The translations under genes and the position numbers were made by a program. The notes under the pieces are model-generated. The model ran no database searches. It saw nothing but the letters and a program-made list of their open reading frames with translations, and was not told where the DNA came from. This document shows positions 12,317 through 32,046 of a stretch of DNA of 55,061 nt, piece by piece; the first letter of the stretch is position 1; each line of letters begins with the position of its first letter. Source of the stretch: a virus; the IMG/VR virus record IMGVR_UViG_3300030109_000603, positions 1 to 55,061 of that record, one strand, 5' to 3'.

Positions 12317-12339
12317 CATTCACGGATTTTCCGTGATTA
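12317..12339. repeat. Intercistronic palindrome 4 (core 12323-12333)
   Basis: Core CGGATTTTCCG within the 15-bp palindrome CACGGA-TTT-TCCGTG. On the minus strand the TGA stop of the 42-residue gene lies in its distal arm. Confidence 0.8.
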
Positions 12340-12448
12340 GTTTTGCATTATTAGGGAAACGTTTTAGTATCTTCGATACTTGCCGCATATCACGACAGGT
12401 AAGATAAGAAAACATAAACCCTTCGTCATCATAGAAACATACACGCAT
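12320..12448 (-). CDS. Hypothetical protein (42 aa)
   Basis: ATG at 12448 with GGAGGTAATC upstream, which overlaps the end of the previous gene. Its last codons and TGA are built from palindrome 4. The sequence MRVCFYDDEGFMFSYLTCRD is followed by a basic helix. It is unrecognised, but strong initiation signals support it. Confidence 0.55.
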   Translation of the reverse strand: MRVCFYDDEGFMFSYLTCRDMRQVSKILKRFPNNAKLITENP

Positions 12449-12450
12449 GA

Positions 12451-12684
12451 TTACCTCCAATCAAAAGCTAAAACAGAAAGTAATACTACTAAAGGTAATA
12501 ATGATAGTAATATCACAGGACTGATAGTAGTATAAGCTACTATTAATAATATACTTGTAGTAGATACAAGTATTAACAACCAAGCGAAAAATAATACAAA
12601 ATGCACGGCATGTACTCCTATTTTTGATAGACTTTTGTCGGCATGTAATCGAGTGATCACATACAAAAAGAAAAAATCAATCAC
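12451..12684 (-). CDS. Small multi-pass membrane protein (77 aa), GTG start in a palindrome
   Basis: The only plausible start is a GTG (12684-12682) inside the perfect 25-bp palindrome 12677-12701. The GGAA of the palindrome arm could serve as a weak Shine-Dalgarno. Hydrophobic segments are at about residues 2-11, 28-50 and 53-73, giving two or three transmembrane helices. It could be an inner-membrane modifier of the host, but no family is recognised. Confidence 0.55.
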   Translation of the reverse strand: MIDFFFLYVITRLHADKSLSKIGVHAVHFVLFFAWLLILVSTTSILLIVAYTTISPVILLSLLPLVVLLSVLAFDWR

Positions 12685-12701
12685 GGAATTTCCGTGATTG
12701 A
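12677..12701. repeat. Intercistronic palindrome 5 (perfect 25 bp)
   Basis: Arms of 12 bp (12677-12688, reading TCAATCACGGAA, and 12690-12701) around a central T. It is the longest and most perfect copy, holds the GTG start of the membrane-protein gene, and marks the left edge of the dense hairpin region. Confidence 0.9.
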
Positions 12702-12720
12702 CTATACTTCAAAGAAGTAT

Positions 12721-12750
12721 AAACAAAAAAAAGCTCCCCGAAGGGAGCTT
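12721..12750 (-). terminator. Intrinsic terminator (leftward)
   Basis: Minus strand: stem AAGCTCCC / GGGAGCTT (12750-12743 and 12738-12731) closed by a TTCG tetraloop, followed by a run of eight T. It lies just after the stop of the 61-residue gene at 12754. It probably reduces, rather than ends, readthrough into the rest of the arm. Confidence 0.8.
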
Positions 12751-12753
12751 CTT

Positions 12754-12939
12754 TTATATTTCACCAAGAGCAATCAAACAATCTATAAAGCCTTCAGCTT
12801 TATGTTTGTTAACCCAATGGTCATTCTCCCTTTTAAGGAGAACTGGGAAATCATGTTTGTCGTTTATTAAACGACCTTGATAGCAAAAACAGTATTCAGT
12901 ATTTGAATACTCCAAGATTTCAACTCCACAATATTCCAT
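12754..12939 (-). CDS. Hypothetical protein (61 aa)
   Basis: ATG at 12939, two bases after a perfect hairpin that displays GGA of its Shine-Dalgarno in the loop. The protein has three cysteines near the N-terminus (YCGVEI, YCFCYQ) and an HWVNKHKAEGF segment. At least four hairpins lie within the coding sequence. A terminator follows. No family is recognised. Confidence 0.6.
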   Translation of the reverse strand: MEYCGVEILEYSNTEYCFCYQGRLINDKHDFPVLLKRENDHWVNKHKAEGFIDCLIALGEI

Positions 12940-12941
12940 AT

Positions 12942-12960
12942 TTTAAATCTCCGATTTAAA
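12942..12960 (-). promoter_or_regulatory. Shine-Dalgarno in a hairpin loop
   Basis: A perfect 8-bp stem (TTTAAATC / GATTTAAA) with the 3-nt loop GGA on the minus strand. GGA plus the next G form the Shine-Dalgarno of the gene starting at 12939. The fold could mask the ribosome site or present it, so translation may depend on structure, temperature or a GGA-binding protein. Confidence 0.6.
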
Positions 12961-12966
12961 GTTATT

Positions 12967-12981
12967 CTCGGAATTTCCGAG
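12967..12981. repeat. Intercistronic palindrome 6
   Basis: Perfect 15-bp palindrome, CTCGGAA-T-TTCCGAG (core 12969-12979), between the 204-residue gene and the 61-residue gene. Confidence 0.85.
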
Positions 12982-12987
12982 ATTGAA

Positions 12988-13007
12988 TAGCCCCCCGAAG
13001 GGGGCTA
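12988..13007 (-). terminator. GC-rich hairpin after the 204-aa gene
   Basis: Stem TAGCCCCC / GGGGGCTA with a TTCG tetraloop on the minus strand, seven bases past the stop of the gene at 13014. The following sequence (ATTCAATC) is only weakly T-rich, so it may be a partial terminator or a 3'-end stabiliser. Confidence 0.5.
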
Positions 13008-13013
13008 AATGAT

Positions 13014-13628
13014 TTACTTGAAGAGCTTTGCAAGCTCTTTTGCGAATGTGGATCTGCTAAAGCCTCCGGCTTCAAGAGCATCATAAACTTGCTCTGCAAG
13101 TTCCTTTTCGTTTTTCGCAACCACTGTCTCAAAGACAGTGTTCTTGACTACCTCTTCAGCCTTATTAGGCTGTTCAGAAGCCTTCGGCTTGCCCTTCGAG
13201 GTGTTCCCTGCCGAAGAAGCTTTAGGCTTCTTACGAAGCTCAGGATGAGCTTCCAGAACAATCTTCCGAATGGAAGATACTCCCAAGCTGTTAAGCTTGC
13301 CAGCTTTGTTTAACCTCTGGACTTTAGTCCAGTGAGTGGCGATCCACTTGGCATCATACTTATCAGCAGAGCTGATGTTTTCGTTGCTGAGATCAGTTCC
13401 ACTGATAAATGAGCCGTAGGCTTTCTTGTCACCACCAAACAGATTTTCAATCTGAAGCAGGATGTTTCCAAGCTCTCTGTAGAGAGCCAACTGATCCTCT
13501 TGGATCAGGTAAAGCTTGTCATAACAAGCTACGGCATGACTAATACCATTAGTCAGAGTGTAGGACTTACGTCCTAGCTTGAAGGTTGAGTCCAAAGTTA
13601 CCGTAGGTAAAGCTGCTGATTTTGCCAT
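13014..13628 (-). CDS. Unknown protein (204 aa), first gene of the leftward arm, hairpin-filled coding sequence
   Basis: The first gene leftward of the divergent control region, so a likely immediate-early product. The N-terminal 130 residues are helical (QLALYRELGNILLQIENLF, KWIATHWTKVQRLNKAGKL). A basic, Ser/Ala/Pro-rich linker follows (about 130-155) and then a helical acidic domain ending AKELAKLFK. The layout suggests a DNA-binding or regulatory protein, but I do not recognise the family. The coding sequence holds about 24 short hairpins with no fixed relation to codon phase. The ATG at 13628 stands one base after a hairpin that exposes its Shine-Dalgarno. Confidence 0.8.
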   Translation of the reverse strand: MAKSAALPTVTLDSTFKLGRKSYTLTNGISHAVACYDKLYLIQEDQLALYRELGNILLQIENLFGGDKKAYGSFISGTDLSNENISSADKYDAKWIATHWTKVQRLNKAGKLNSLGVSSIRKIVLEAHPELRKKPKASSAGNTSKGKPKASEQPNKAEEVVKNTVFETVVAKNEKELAEQVYDALEAGGFSRSTFAKELAKLFK

Positions 13629-13629
13629 T

Positions 13630-13646
13630 TTAATTCTCCGAATTAA
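13630..13646 (-). promoter_or_regulatory. Shine-Dalgarno in a hairpin loop
   Basis: A perfect 7-bp stem (TTAATTC / GAATTAA) with loop GGA on the minus strand, one base before the ATG at 13628. Same design as the hairpin at 12942-12960 but different stem bases, which argues that the structure is selected. Confidence 0.6.
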
Positions 13647-13690
13647 GTTAAGGTTGCTGCTTCACCGATTTGCCGATGAAGCCCTTACAA

Positions 13691-13718
13691 AGTAACACTG
13701 ATTCGTTTGGATTGTCAA
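13691..13718 (-). promoter_or_regulatory. Putative leftward early promoter
   Basis: Minus strand TTGACA (13718-13713), 16-bp spacer, GTTACT (13696-13691). The -35 is perfect and the -10 is poor. It would start transcripts about 60 bases before the 204-residue gene. Palindrome 7 lies 25 bp upstream of the -35. Confidence 0.4.
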
Positions 13719-13740
13719 CCCCTTTAGGGGGTTGGTCATT

Positions 13741-13755
13741 CTCGGAATTTCCGAG
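13741..13755. repeat. Palindrome 7, upstream of the leftward arm
   Basis: Perfect 15-bp palindrome identical to copy 6 (CTCGGAA-T-TTCCGAG; core 13743-13753). It lies upstream of the first leftward gene and its putative promoter, consistent with an operator. Confidence 0.85.
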
Positions 13756-14332
13756 GTTAACTTTCCCTTTAGGGAAAACTTTCTGATCTTTTGGTGCGCA
13801 TTATGCGCAAGGAAAAGCTAGGGGTATACCTCTGCGCCTTGACCCTTTAGGGTTGACCATAGCTTAACCCCTTGGGGTTACCTCCAAAAATTCCCCTTAA
13901 AATACTTGTATTTTAGAGAACAAGAATCCCTTATTGTTTTAAAAAACAATAGATAACAATGCTTTAGCATTGTAGGTAGCTCAAAATCCTACGGATTCAG
14001 ACACGCATAGCCTCTTCAGAGGCCGGGGGCATGGGCCACTGGGGGGATACCCGTATGCGTATACACTCAATGACAGAGGGGGGTATTTTTTAAGTGTTAA
14101 CTACAATAAATATAGGCCCATATATAGTATTCTCTATAGAAAACAGGGGGTTAACCCTGCAGTTGGTACGAAAGGTAGACATACTTTTAGAGTATTGTAA
14201 AGATATGTTACAGTGTTTGTAACAATTTGTGATTAACTGGACTTATACTTTGTAGTAACTGGCTATATGTAGAGTATTAATAATGTTAATACTAATTATG
14301 AATATTATTCATATTAATTCTTACTTTAAGTG

Positions 14333-14360
14333 TTGACAAATATTAAAAGTGCGGTATAAT
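14333..14360 (+). promoter_or_regulatory. Strong rightward sigma70-type promoter
   Basis: Perfect TTGACA (14333-14338) and TATAAT (14355-14360), with a 16-bp spacer. Two copies of TATACTTA follow at once (about 14360-14380), a possible operator at the start of the transcript. Confidence 0.8.
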
Positions 14361-14389
14361 ATACTTAAAGGATATACTTAGAGTATGTC

Positions 14390-14437
14390 TTAAATACTAA
14401 ATACTATTAATAATTATAATTAATAATTAGTATTTAA
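14390..14437. repeat. Long AT-rich inverted repeat
   Basis: Arms TTAAATACTAA (14390-14400) and TTAGTATTTAA (14427-14437), perfect over 11 bp, with a 26-bp A/T spacer that itself is nearly palindromic. It lies between the two rightward promoters. It could be a melting or cruciform element at an origin, or a leader hairpin. Confidence 0.6.
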
Positions 14438-14489
14438 AGAAATCCTTTAAGGATAGTGTGAATTTTTTTACTGTCGTAGGTAAAAAGTA

Positions 14490-29969: not shown

Positions 29970-31043
29970 ATGGCTTTTACAACTGCAGGGGGATACGGTA
30001 ACTTACCTAACGGTAATTTTAGTTCCGTAATCTACTCCAAAAAAGTACAACTTGCATTCCGCAAGAGTACTGTTTGTGGTGATATCACTAACTCTGATTA
30101 TTTTGGGGAAATTGCTGCCCAAGGTGATACGGTGAAAATCATCAAAGAACCTGAGATTTCAGTCTCGTCTTATGCACGAGGTACACAGGTTTCAGCACAA
30201 GATCTTGACGATGAGGATTTTTCTCTTGTAGTCGATAAAGCAAACTATTTTGCTTTTAAGATTGACGATATTGAGGAAGCTCACTCACATGTTAACTTTA
30301 TGGATCTTGCAACTAACCGTGCAGCATATCGTTTGGCTGACCAACATGACCAAGAAGTTCTTGGCTATTTGGCAGGTTTCAAACAGTCATCTTTGCACTC
30401 GCAAGCAGATACAGCTAATGACGTTGTAAACGGATCAAAAGCTGTTTCAACTGCTGGTTCTAACGAATTGCTTTCAAGTATGCAATTGAAAAAGGGTGAC
30501 TTCGGTAACATCACAACTGGTTCTGCTGGAGATCATTCGATCCCACTAGCAGCACGTTTGCCGGGTGCTACTGCACTACCAACTGCTACAGCTTCACCAG
30601 CAATGGTTGTTGCTCGTATGGCACGTCTACTTGATCAACAACAAGTTGATAAAGCTGGACGGTGGCTTGTAGTTGATCCAGTATTCATGGAACTTCTTGC
30701 TGACGAAGACTCACGTTTCTTCAATGCAGATTTCGGTGAATCAGGTGGACTACGTAATGGTCTTGTCTTGAATAACTTCCACGGTTTCCGTGTATACACT
30801 TCAAGCAATTTGCCAGCAGTAGGTACAGGACCGGGTACAACAGGTTCTGCAAACCAAAACACTAACTATGGTGTTATTGTCGCTGGTCATGATTCTGCAG
30901 TAGCAACTGCAGAGCAGATCAACAAAACTGAAACATATCGTGACCCTGACTCATTTGCAGACATTGTTCGTGGTATGCATCTATATGGTCGCAAGATCCT
31001 TCGTCCAGAAGCTCTTGTTAATGCCAAGTATAACGCAGCGTAA
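29970..31043 (+). CDS. Major capsid protein (357 aa)
   Basis: Starts MAFTTAGGYGNLPNGNFSS and contains the capsid-like stretches DTVKIIKEPEISVSSYARG and VDKANYFAFKIDDIEEAH, then NRAAYRLADQHDQEVLGYLA and RWLVVDPVFMELLADED. The layout is that of HK97-fold capsid proteins of marine podophages. It has its own promoter, a long leader and a strong AGGAGG site, as expected for the most abundant virion protein. The scaffold gene is immediately upstream. Confidence 0.92.
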   Translation: MAFTTAGGYGNLPNGNFSSVIYSKKVQLAFRKSTVCGDITNSDYFGEIAAQGDTVKIIKEPEISVSSYARGTQVSAQDLDDEDFSLVVDKANYFAFKIDDIEEAHSHVNFMDLATNRAAYRLADQHDQEVLGYLAGFKQSSLHSQADTANDVVNGSKAVSTAGSNELLSSMQLKKGDFGNITTGSAGDHSIPLAARLPGATALPTATASPAMVVARMARLLDQQQVDKAGRWLVVDPVFMELLADEDSRFFNADFGESGGLRNGLVLNNFHGFRVYTSSNLPAVGTGPGTTGSANQNTNYGVIVAGHDSAVATAEQINKTETYRDPDSFADIVRGMHLYGRKILRPEALVNAKYNAA

Positions 31044-31057
31044 GGGAGGATTGAATT

Positions 31058-31549
31058 ATGGCATTAGGTGATAACACACTCCAATCTGCACGAGGAGCGA
31101 ACAGCAATCCGGGTAGAAAACCTTACATGGTTCAAACTGTATTGAACCTAGCAACTGCTTTGTCAGACAAAGGTTCTGCTCTTGCAGCATCCGATGTTGT
31201 TCCTGTAATTGCTGTACCAAAAGGTACAATGATTTTGAATGCAGGTATTGAAGTTGACACAGCATCAGATGGTTCTACATTTACTGTAGACCTTGGAACT
31301 GGTGTAGATGCTGACGTATTCGTTGATGGTTTTGACGGTACATCTGCAGCAGCGGTAGTTGCACAAAATCCTGCAGCATATCAGCCAGTAATGGCTGTAG
31401 CTAATGACAACATTGATCTGACAATTGCTACATTGTCTGGTGGTGCTGTTACTACAGGTAAATTCCGTATCTGGGCAGTAATGATGGATTGCACAGATGC
31501 AGGTAAAGACGGTACTGCTCAAGAAGTAGACCGTGATTTACTAGCATAA
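31058..31549 (+). CDS. Capsid decoration / minor head protein (163 aa)
   Basis: Ala/Val/Asp-rich beta protein (VLNLATALSDKGSALAASDVV, FTVDLGTGVDADVFVDGF) immediately after the capsid gene with a good Shine-Dalgarno (GGAGG). Position, size and composition fit a head-decoration or stabilising protein. No specific family is recognised. Confidence 0.65.
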   Translation: MALGDNTLQSARGANSNPGRKPYMVQTVLNLATALSDKGSALAASDVVPVIAVPKGTMILNAGIEVDTASDGSTFTVDLGTGVDADVFVDGFDGTSAAAVVAQNPAAYQPVMAVANDNIDLTIATLSGGAVTTGKFRIWAVMMDCTDAGKDGTAQEVDRDLLA

Positions 31550-31555
31550 AATAAC

Positions 31556-31587
31556 TTTAAGGGGCTGCTTTAAGGTGGCCCCTTAAA
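31556..31587 (+). terminator. Hairpin after the capsid operon (partial terminator or processing site)
   Basis: TTTAAGGGGC (31556-31565) pairs perfectly with GCCCCTTAAA (31578-31587) over a 12-nt loop. There is no strong T run after it, so it would damp transcription or protect the 3' end of the capsid mRNA and lower expression of the tail genes. Confidence 0.6.
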
Positions 31588-31608
31588 CTTAACTAGAGGA
31601 TTCCAAAC

Positions 31609-32046
31609 ATGGGCATTACAACAGCAATGTGTACAAGTTTTAAAGGTGAACTGCTTGGCGGTATCCATGATTTGGATACCCATACTATTAAACTTGCATT
31701 AATTAAAGCTTCACCTTCTGGTACATATAATGCAGCAACAACTAATTATTCAGATGTAACGGGTAACTCTGATGAAGCATCTGGTACAAATTACTCTGCA
31801 GGTGGTCAAAACCTAGATAGTCCAGCTATTACTACATCTGGAACTACTGCAATGGTAGACTTTGCAGATGAAGTATTTTCAAACGTAACAACATCAGCAG
31901 ATGGGTGTATTATATATAATTCATCTGCATCTAATAAAGCCATTGCTGTAATTGATTTTGGTGGTACAGTTAGTGCTACAGCAGGTGATCTAACTATTGA
32001 GTTTCCAGCAGTAGGAACAAGCACTGCAGTAATTCGTATTGCCTAA
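31609..32046 (+). CDS. Beta-rich structural protein (145 aa)
   Basis: The N-terminus SFKGELLGGIHDLDTHTIKLALI and the later YSAGGQNL motif resemble a family of small phage virion proteins of unclear role. Ser/Thr/Ala-rich, beta-stranded, without catalytic motifs. It is probably a head or tail accessory. Confidence 0.6.
   Translation: MGITTAMCTSFKGELLGGIHDLDTHTIKLALIKASPSGTYNAATTNYSDVTGNSDEASGTNYSAGGQNLDSPAITTSGTTAMVDFADEVFSNVTTSADGCIIYNSSASNKAIAVIDFGGTVSATAGDLTIEFPAVGTSTAVIRIA

Follow-up and report, generated by a model that had tools for sequence, protein, structure and literature searches.

A field of short hairpins, apparently under selection, in one leftward transcription unit of HMO-2011-like phages

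The genome-scale ordered RNA structure (GORS) of RNA viruses pervades coding and non-coding sequence, goes beyond what codon choice imposes and persists through turnover of the underlying sequence. Short, small-loop hairpins formed in single-stranded DNA are functional in the early promoters of phage N4, in integron attC sites, in Frpo of the F plasmid and in mitochondrial OriL, and many short palindromes, some of them within genes, are known as repetitive extragenic palindromes and bacterial interspersed mosaic elements (REP/BIME), as Rickettsia palindromic elements (RPE) and from organelles. The hairpin field described here has something in common with all of these. It occupies positions 12677-14023 of IMGVR_UViG_3300030109_000603, a virus record of the HMO-2011-like group that was analyzed in its entire length (55,061 nt, hereafter the window), and covers a leader and two leftward genes, P0001 and P0002. 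As the comparisons below show, one lineage within the HMO-2011-like phages keeps this terminator-bounded, predicted unit filled with about 40 potential perfect hairpins of 6-8 bp with loops of 2-4 nt.

Unlike GORS, the field consists of local perfect mini-hairpins only, resides in a double-stranded DNA phage, is confined to one unit of 1.35 kb, shows no strand preference and contains little G-U pairing. The functional hairpins of single-stranded DNA occur singly or in small numbers at defined positions, whereas here some 40 unrelated hairpins occur and their density is conserved rather than any site. REP/BIME, Rickettsia and organellar palindromes share sequence as families, whereas the stems of the field differ, with the exception of one family of three to four copies. 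Intrinsic terminators are likewise perfect GC-rich hairpins, and two of them end the unit, but a T run follows only a few of the field's stems, and terminators were therefore rejected as the whole explanation. Template switching that perfects quasi-palindromes has been reported for highly transcribed yeast DNA, and only under high transcription (PMC3820800). There, too, inverted repeats are perfected in connection with transcription, but as rare mutational events and not as a conserved, slowly evolving and covarying field. A previous reading of the window from its sequence only had recognized no described phage element of this kind, and nothing similar was present in the libraries searched. 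A limited literature search did not retrieve such hairpin-rich phage regions, and the papers on HMO-2011-type phages that were checked are silent on hairpins. Within the scope of this search, we know of no constraint described in phages that keeps hairpin density through coding sequence. Structural selection normally keeps particular helices, while here it apparently keeps the density of perfect hairpins over 1.35 kb and the hairpins themselves are continually replaced.

Density and anatomy of the hairpins

Hairpins were counted as non-overlapping perfect stems of at least 6 bp with loops of 2-7 nt. The field contains 37 of them, as compared with 2.2 ± 1.4 (maximum 6) in 200 dinucleotide shuffles of the same DNA. 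With minimum stems of 5, 6, 7 and 8 bp, counts of 43, 37, 27 and 13 stand against shuffle means of 7.7, 2.2, 0.6 and 0.2 and maxima of 15, 6, 4 and 2. Density reaches 26 hairpins per kb at 13-14 kb and lies at about 0-8, usually 1-5, elsewhere in the 55-kb genome. The coding sequence of P0001 (204 codons) holds 17 hairpins versus 1.9 (maximum 6) in 200 synonymous-codon shuffles, which is a folding excess over codon-preserving controls as in GORS, and P0002 (61 codons) holds 4 versus 1.15 (maximum 3). Chance or base composition is ruled out as the cause by both kinds of shuffle. The sequence-only reading had put about 40 hairpins here, more than 25 of them counted by eye and almost one every 30 bases, had considered them too many for chance and had named shuffled controls with similar counts as evidence to the contrary; its count, spacing and non-chance origin are all borne out, and no shuffle reached the real numbers. 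A local increase to 8 hairpins per kb at 31000-32000, among structural genes, is unexplained.

Successive hairpins are spaced at about one per 30-35 nt. Among 13 genomes, 223 different hairpin cores were collected, with stems of 6 bp (70), 7 bp (90), 8 bp (54) and at least 9 bp (9). Their loops mostly measure 3 nt, followed by 2 and 4 nt; enrichment is limited to loops of about 1-6 nt and is near chance at longer spacings. A-T pairs make up more than half of the stem pairs. The loop-closing pair is strongly 5'-pyrimidine/3'-purine: for loops of at least 3 nt it is C-G in 84 cases, T-A in 55, A-T in 31 and G-C in 9, and for 2-nt loops 40 pyrimidine-purine pairs compare with 3 of the opposite orientation, as against 43 and 37 in background hairpins of these phages. 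GNA triloops are frequent, and loops are very diverse overall. A decoy for CsrA-type proteins was considered because GGA is common as a triloop, and was set aside since the loops are too diverse. Rfam gave no match at gathering score anywhere in the window, and a search for tRNAs found none.

Three further statements of the earlier reading hold in part. Hairpins do cross both genes and their flanks, but instead of stopping altogether the field continues leftward for 1-4 kb as a thinner tail at two to three times background. Codon phase is not wholly ignored, as one register of stem pairing is under-used (30 versus 46 and 55). Neighbouring stems are unrelated for the most part, except for a family of the form TCnCGGA-nnn-TCCGnGA with three to four intergenic copies among the leftward genes (12320, 12681, 12966 and, in a 6-bp form, 13741). 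Its letters change together within one genome, such that every copy found in the related contigs L010 and L045 reads TCATGGA, and by its pattern the family resembles a specific binding or processing site. With 223 different cores and this sole recurring family, sequence repeats and mobile palindromes such as REP, RPE and miniature inverted-repeat transposable elements were rejected as an explanation of the field.

Distribution among relatives and signs of selection

Relatives were drawn from IMG/VR as 38 loci with P0001 homologues. The sequences are mainly metagenomic assemblies, and separate assemblies agree; as the relatives are not independent, counts across them overstate sample size, for which shuffles, slid controls and reciprocal comparisons are a partial remedy. 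The P0001 tree has three groups. Group F, the clade to which the window's own gene belongs, reaches down to 42-45% protein identity, spans GC contents of 0.39-0.54 and carries the full field in all its homologues, with 9-17 hairpins per complete gene. Its sister clade, group H (38-41% identity), has about half the density with 6-9 hairpins, and the deeper group N (31-39% identity) 0-2 hairpins. Two changes on the tree, some branches of which are weakly supported, suffice for this distribution. Homologues that keep the protein and lose the stems, which the earlier reading had considered fatal to its claim, do occur, but only in the deeper clade at 31-39% identity, so that the field is lineage-specific rather than false and at the same time no by-product of the protein family. 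The related clades form a natural series of full, half and no field, by which its role can be addressed directly.

The field is absent where a different first early gene accompanies this primase and right-hand neighbour gene. It therefore tracks the P0001 unit and not the replication genes; two group H phages possess an HMO-2011-type polymerase and helicase instead. Across 80 loci of related phages, about 1 Mb in all, a clear field was present only at P0001-type loci, with L072 as a marginal case (10 per kb). HMO-2011, an isolate with a SAR116 host, has a weaker field of 6-8 hairpins per 500 bp around gp74, which is a probable distant P0001 homologue (profile comparison, 81% probability). Several copies of an AGTCCG-ACAG-CGGACT hairpin are found around the early region of HMO-2011 (L017/L001). 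No relatives were found on bacterial and archaeal genome contigs, and tblastn of public phage records yielded no P0001 match. The contig of L045 starts with the P0002 end of a field; like it, L002, L010, L011, L012, L117 and L120 terminate within the hairpin field or close to it, as would be expected if assembly were interrupted there by hairpins or by variation among strains.

Covariation was analyzed in an alignment of eight sequences with the window's hairpins as structure. In this alignment 87% of the cells pair, as compared with 34-43% in slid controls. Since the structure was drawn from a member of the alignment, the unslid count has an advantage, and pairs altered on both sides provide the stronger evidence: 30 pairs have changed on both sides where 17.4 ± 2.4 are expected, a number reached in none of 500 shuffles, and paired positions thus covary as they do in GORS. 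The covariation score amounts to 0.133 versus 0.092 ± 0.006 in shuffles and 0.03-0.07 in slid controls. Furthermore, stems of close relatives usually evolve three to four times more slowly than spacers, in coding and non-coding DNA. Between the window and L006, substitutions in stems and spacers amount to 2.6% and 9.5% in non-coding and to 4.7% and 12.8% in coding sequence, and in the coding DNA of L004 and L006 to 1.3% and 11.5% (p=1e-6).

The individual hairpins are not fixed. At about 43% protein identity, L036 has the same hairpin density with largely different stems, and at one site in the non-coding upstream part the stems of relatives read TAACCCC, TTGGTCT, CTAGGTAA and TTGGTAC. From the window to L006, CAAGCT-TAAC-AGCTTG has been lost and an overlapping AAAGCT-GGTA-AGCTTT gained, which amounts to a shift of the hairpin. 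Most orthologous stems are found at one of two extremes, intact pairing or clear decay: 694 are perfect, 155 contain one non-Watson-Crick pair and 456 contain two to seven. As stems covary or are replaced while density persists, selection appears to keep hairpin density and not particular hairpins. Possibly, a whole transcription unit of a double-stranded DNA phage, genes included, is selected for a local self-complementarity that lets its separated DNA strands fold into mini-hairpins, with hairpin density conserved and each stem replaceable; this would be a new kind of genome architecture.

The folded molecule and the competing explanations

For these hairpins the sequence-only reading had offered a heavily folded early transcript, a DNA-level role in origin melting or single-strand initiation, or a mutational process perfecting palindromes. 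Covariation, together with the slow change of stems in most comparisons of close relatives, supports selection and argues against a purely mutational origin, whereas the choice between RNA and DNA finds evidence on both sides. Pairing in the stems is nearly all Watson-Crick, and G-U is tolerated no better than A-C. Alongside 191 perfect 7-bp arms, mismatches at positions 1-4 from the loop numbered 10 for G-U (expected 4.5) and 10 for A-C (expected 4.1); deduplicated interior mismatches numbered 15 and 17, and orthologous single mismatches 7 and 8, respectively. Hairpin energies are -6.25 in the sense and -6.25 in the antisense strand (difference -0.006 kcal/mol, p=0.92), and the entire unit folds equally well from either strand (-363 versus -357 kcal/mol). 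Neither the preference of G-U over A-C nor the lower sense-strand energy expected of mRNA structure was found, while Watson-Crick pairing without preference for a strand is what hairpins in DNA would produce; intolerance of G-U and strand symmetry thus point to DNA or to both strands. Pyrimidine/purine loop closure and GNA triloops are stability rules of DNA mini-hairpins, the rules with which the field was compared, and its hairpins agree with both.

Our best, though tentative, reading is therefore that of a selected comb of Watson-Crick mini-hairpins, folding when the early unit is single-stranded. The selected object would be the DNA of the unit whenever transcription bubbles, R-loops or a start of replication near the point where leftward and rightward genes diverge hold its strands apart. 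Folding of each exposed strand into such a comb would leave few long free single-strand stretches. The benefit, which is the weakest step, could lie in controlling what binds or re-anneals to the exposed strand: an open bubble might be maintained in which priming or the loading of a helicase can take place, or single strands might be denied to nucleases, RecA-type proteins and guide-directed host defences. Early-region single-strand folding would then be a selected trait of double-stranded DNA phages, with a possible link to the start of replication or to defence by the host.

Several findings weigh against this reading. The extent of the field is most simply read as a property of RNA: in group F genomes that reach the predicted terminators the dense field ends there (at about +880 to +1000), and in group H its end shifts with the terminator (+630 in L122, +883 in L127). 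TTCG and GTAA, which occur among the loops of the sense strand, are stable tetraloops in RNA, although several TTCG loops lie in terminator-like hairpins. In a calibration of low power, the terminator-like hairpins of these phages also lacked a G-U excess. Among pairs of close relatives, single G-U events exceed those of A-C (18 versus 8, duplicates included and mostly at stem ends), a weak hint toward RNA. Distant pairs mostly show no difference in rate between stems and spacers, and in the non-coding comparison of L004 to L002 stems change more than spacers. Neither is the field tied to one replication machinery, given the same-primase phages without it and the HMO-2011-type polymerase in the half-density clade. 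A field that ends at the terminators of one predicted unit points to transcription, and a comb formed upon strand separation in transcription or R-loops would reconcile DNA-like pairing with this extent. An origin might likewise reconcile both sets of facts. Cumulative GC skew across the genome is lowest at 13001-14000, where the coding strand switches, and because of this coincidence it supports an origin only weakly.

The main rival, possible if rather unlikely, is that the early mRNA itself is studded with local hairpins formed during transcription, which would shield it from single-strand-specific nucleases such as RNase E, from Rho loading or from RNA-targeting defences with stems that stay too short for RNase III. 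Armouring of mRNA would then be carried to an extreme. The coincidence of the dense field's end with that of one predicted transcription unit, the shift of this end with the terminator, the coverage of both leader and coding parts, the rarity of stems longer than 8 bp, the apparent selection and the G-U events among close relatives are all in its favour. However, G-U, which is cheap in RNA, is on the whole no commoner than A-C, the sense strand gives hairpins of no greater stability than the antisense strand, and the non-coding upstream part lies upstream of the promoter-like site beside P0001.

Improbable in our view is a functionless field in which transcription-associated template switching perfects imperfect palindromes. 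Such a hotspot would be expected to produce perfect Watson-Crick arms without preference for a strand, to be restricted to one unit and to replace entire stems. Arm copying, however, predicts that stems evolve near or above the rate of spacers by templated double changes, and among close relatives this was not observed apart from the non-coding comparison of L004 to L002, although part of the slow stem pattern could also arise from a correction that favours the older state. Single-mismatch palindromes in the field are not depleted below background, and phages carrying the field differ in DNA polymerase, of which two kinds occur, while other phages lack it.

The protein family of P0001 is characterized by a nearly invariant basic SAGN[T/V]SKGK segment in a low-confidence linker between two predicted helical parts. 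It has no accepted match in Pfam or PHROG and no significant match among PDB or viral folds; a first structure model was poor, a second acceptable for the N-domain, and middling structural similarities (all Z under 6) fell within the range of unrelated models and were not used. Sequence-independent binding of the mini-hairpins by P0001 or by a protein of the host, for autoregulation, as a decoy or as a scaffold, is likewise improbable: the basic segment, the restriction of the field, among examined loci, to two of the three groups of the P0001 family and the weaker field beside gp74 would fit, but deeper homologues have the same motif and no field, and no fold or family match indicates nucleic-acid binding.

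Features of the unit and its surroundings

The window belongs to a marine phage group reported to be dominant and broadly distributed (PMC9038755). The field sits where its leftward genes (RNR, PolA, primase-helicase, ThyX, tyrosine integrase) and rightward genes (terminase, portal, capsid) diverge. Leader, P0001 and P0002 presumably form an early transcription unit with putative promoters.

Table 1. Location of the hairpin field and associated features in the window
Feature	Position	Strand	Remarks
Dense hairpin field	12677..14023	.	37 hairpins, about one per 35 nt; from shuffles, relatives and covariation
Non-coding upstream part of field	13716..14023	-	from hairpin counts
Hairpins of upstream part (1)	13716-13734, 13741-13755, 13762-13777, 13795-13809, 13842-13853 (5 bp), 13865-13880	-	
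Hairpins of upstream part (2)	13898-13915, 13932-13951, 13956-13973, 13985-13997 (5 bp), 14010-14023	-	
P0001	13014..13628	-	204 codons; SAGN[T/V]SKGK motif; orphan; 17 hairpins in coding sequence
P0002	12754..12939	-	61 codons, with hairpins; similar small gene follows in L045
First intrinsic terminator of unit	12726..12755	-	GCTCCC-TTCG-GGGAGC and T run
Second, tandem intrinsic terminator	12675..12703	-	11-bp stem and T run; last hairpin of dense field
Promoter-like sequence	13690..13718	-	TTGACA-N17-TTACTT; from sequence and alignments, suggestion only
Hairpin TTAATTC-GGA-GAATTAA	13630..13646	-	likely Shine-Dalgarno of P0001 in loop and 3' arm
Hairpin TTTAAATC-GGA-GATTTAAA	12942..12960	-	carries likely Shine-Dalgarno of P0002
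Compensated hairpin TAGGAC-GTAA-GTCCTA (helix 11)	13561..13576	-	TAGGTC-GTAA-GACCTA in L002/L004/L005/L007
Compensated hairpin TGACTAAT-GGT-ATTAGTCA (helix 12)	13537..13555	-	TGACTGAT-GGA-ATCAGTCA in L005
Conserved hairpin-poor block	14028..14086	-	CCCCTCTGTCATT...TGGCCCATGC on leftward strand; directly upstream of field; from alignments
Thin tail past terminators	12320..12573	.	hairpins at 12320, 12366, 12524, 12551, weaker 5-bp ones between

The sole real gap in the field (13647-13715) contains the promoter-like sequence ahead of P0001. A consensus promoter scan did not report this site; its TTGAC is preserved in related leaders. The Shine-Dalgarno sequences of both P0001 and P0002 are likely located in a hairpin loop and 3' arm, and the hairpin preceding P0001 is preserved among relatives in the form AATC-GGA-GATT. 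The conserved block directly upstream of the field is perhaps a promoter or operator. AT-rich hairpins occur at 14206-14450, and a perfect sigma-70 consensus promoter (TTGACA-N16-TATAAT), directed rightward and mostly preserved in sequence among relatives, is located at 14333-14360 (+).

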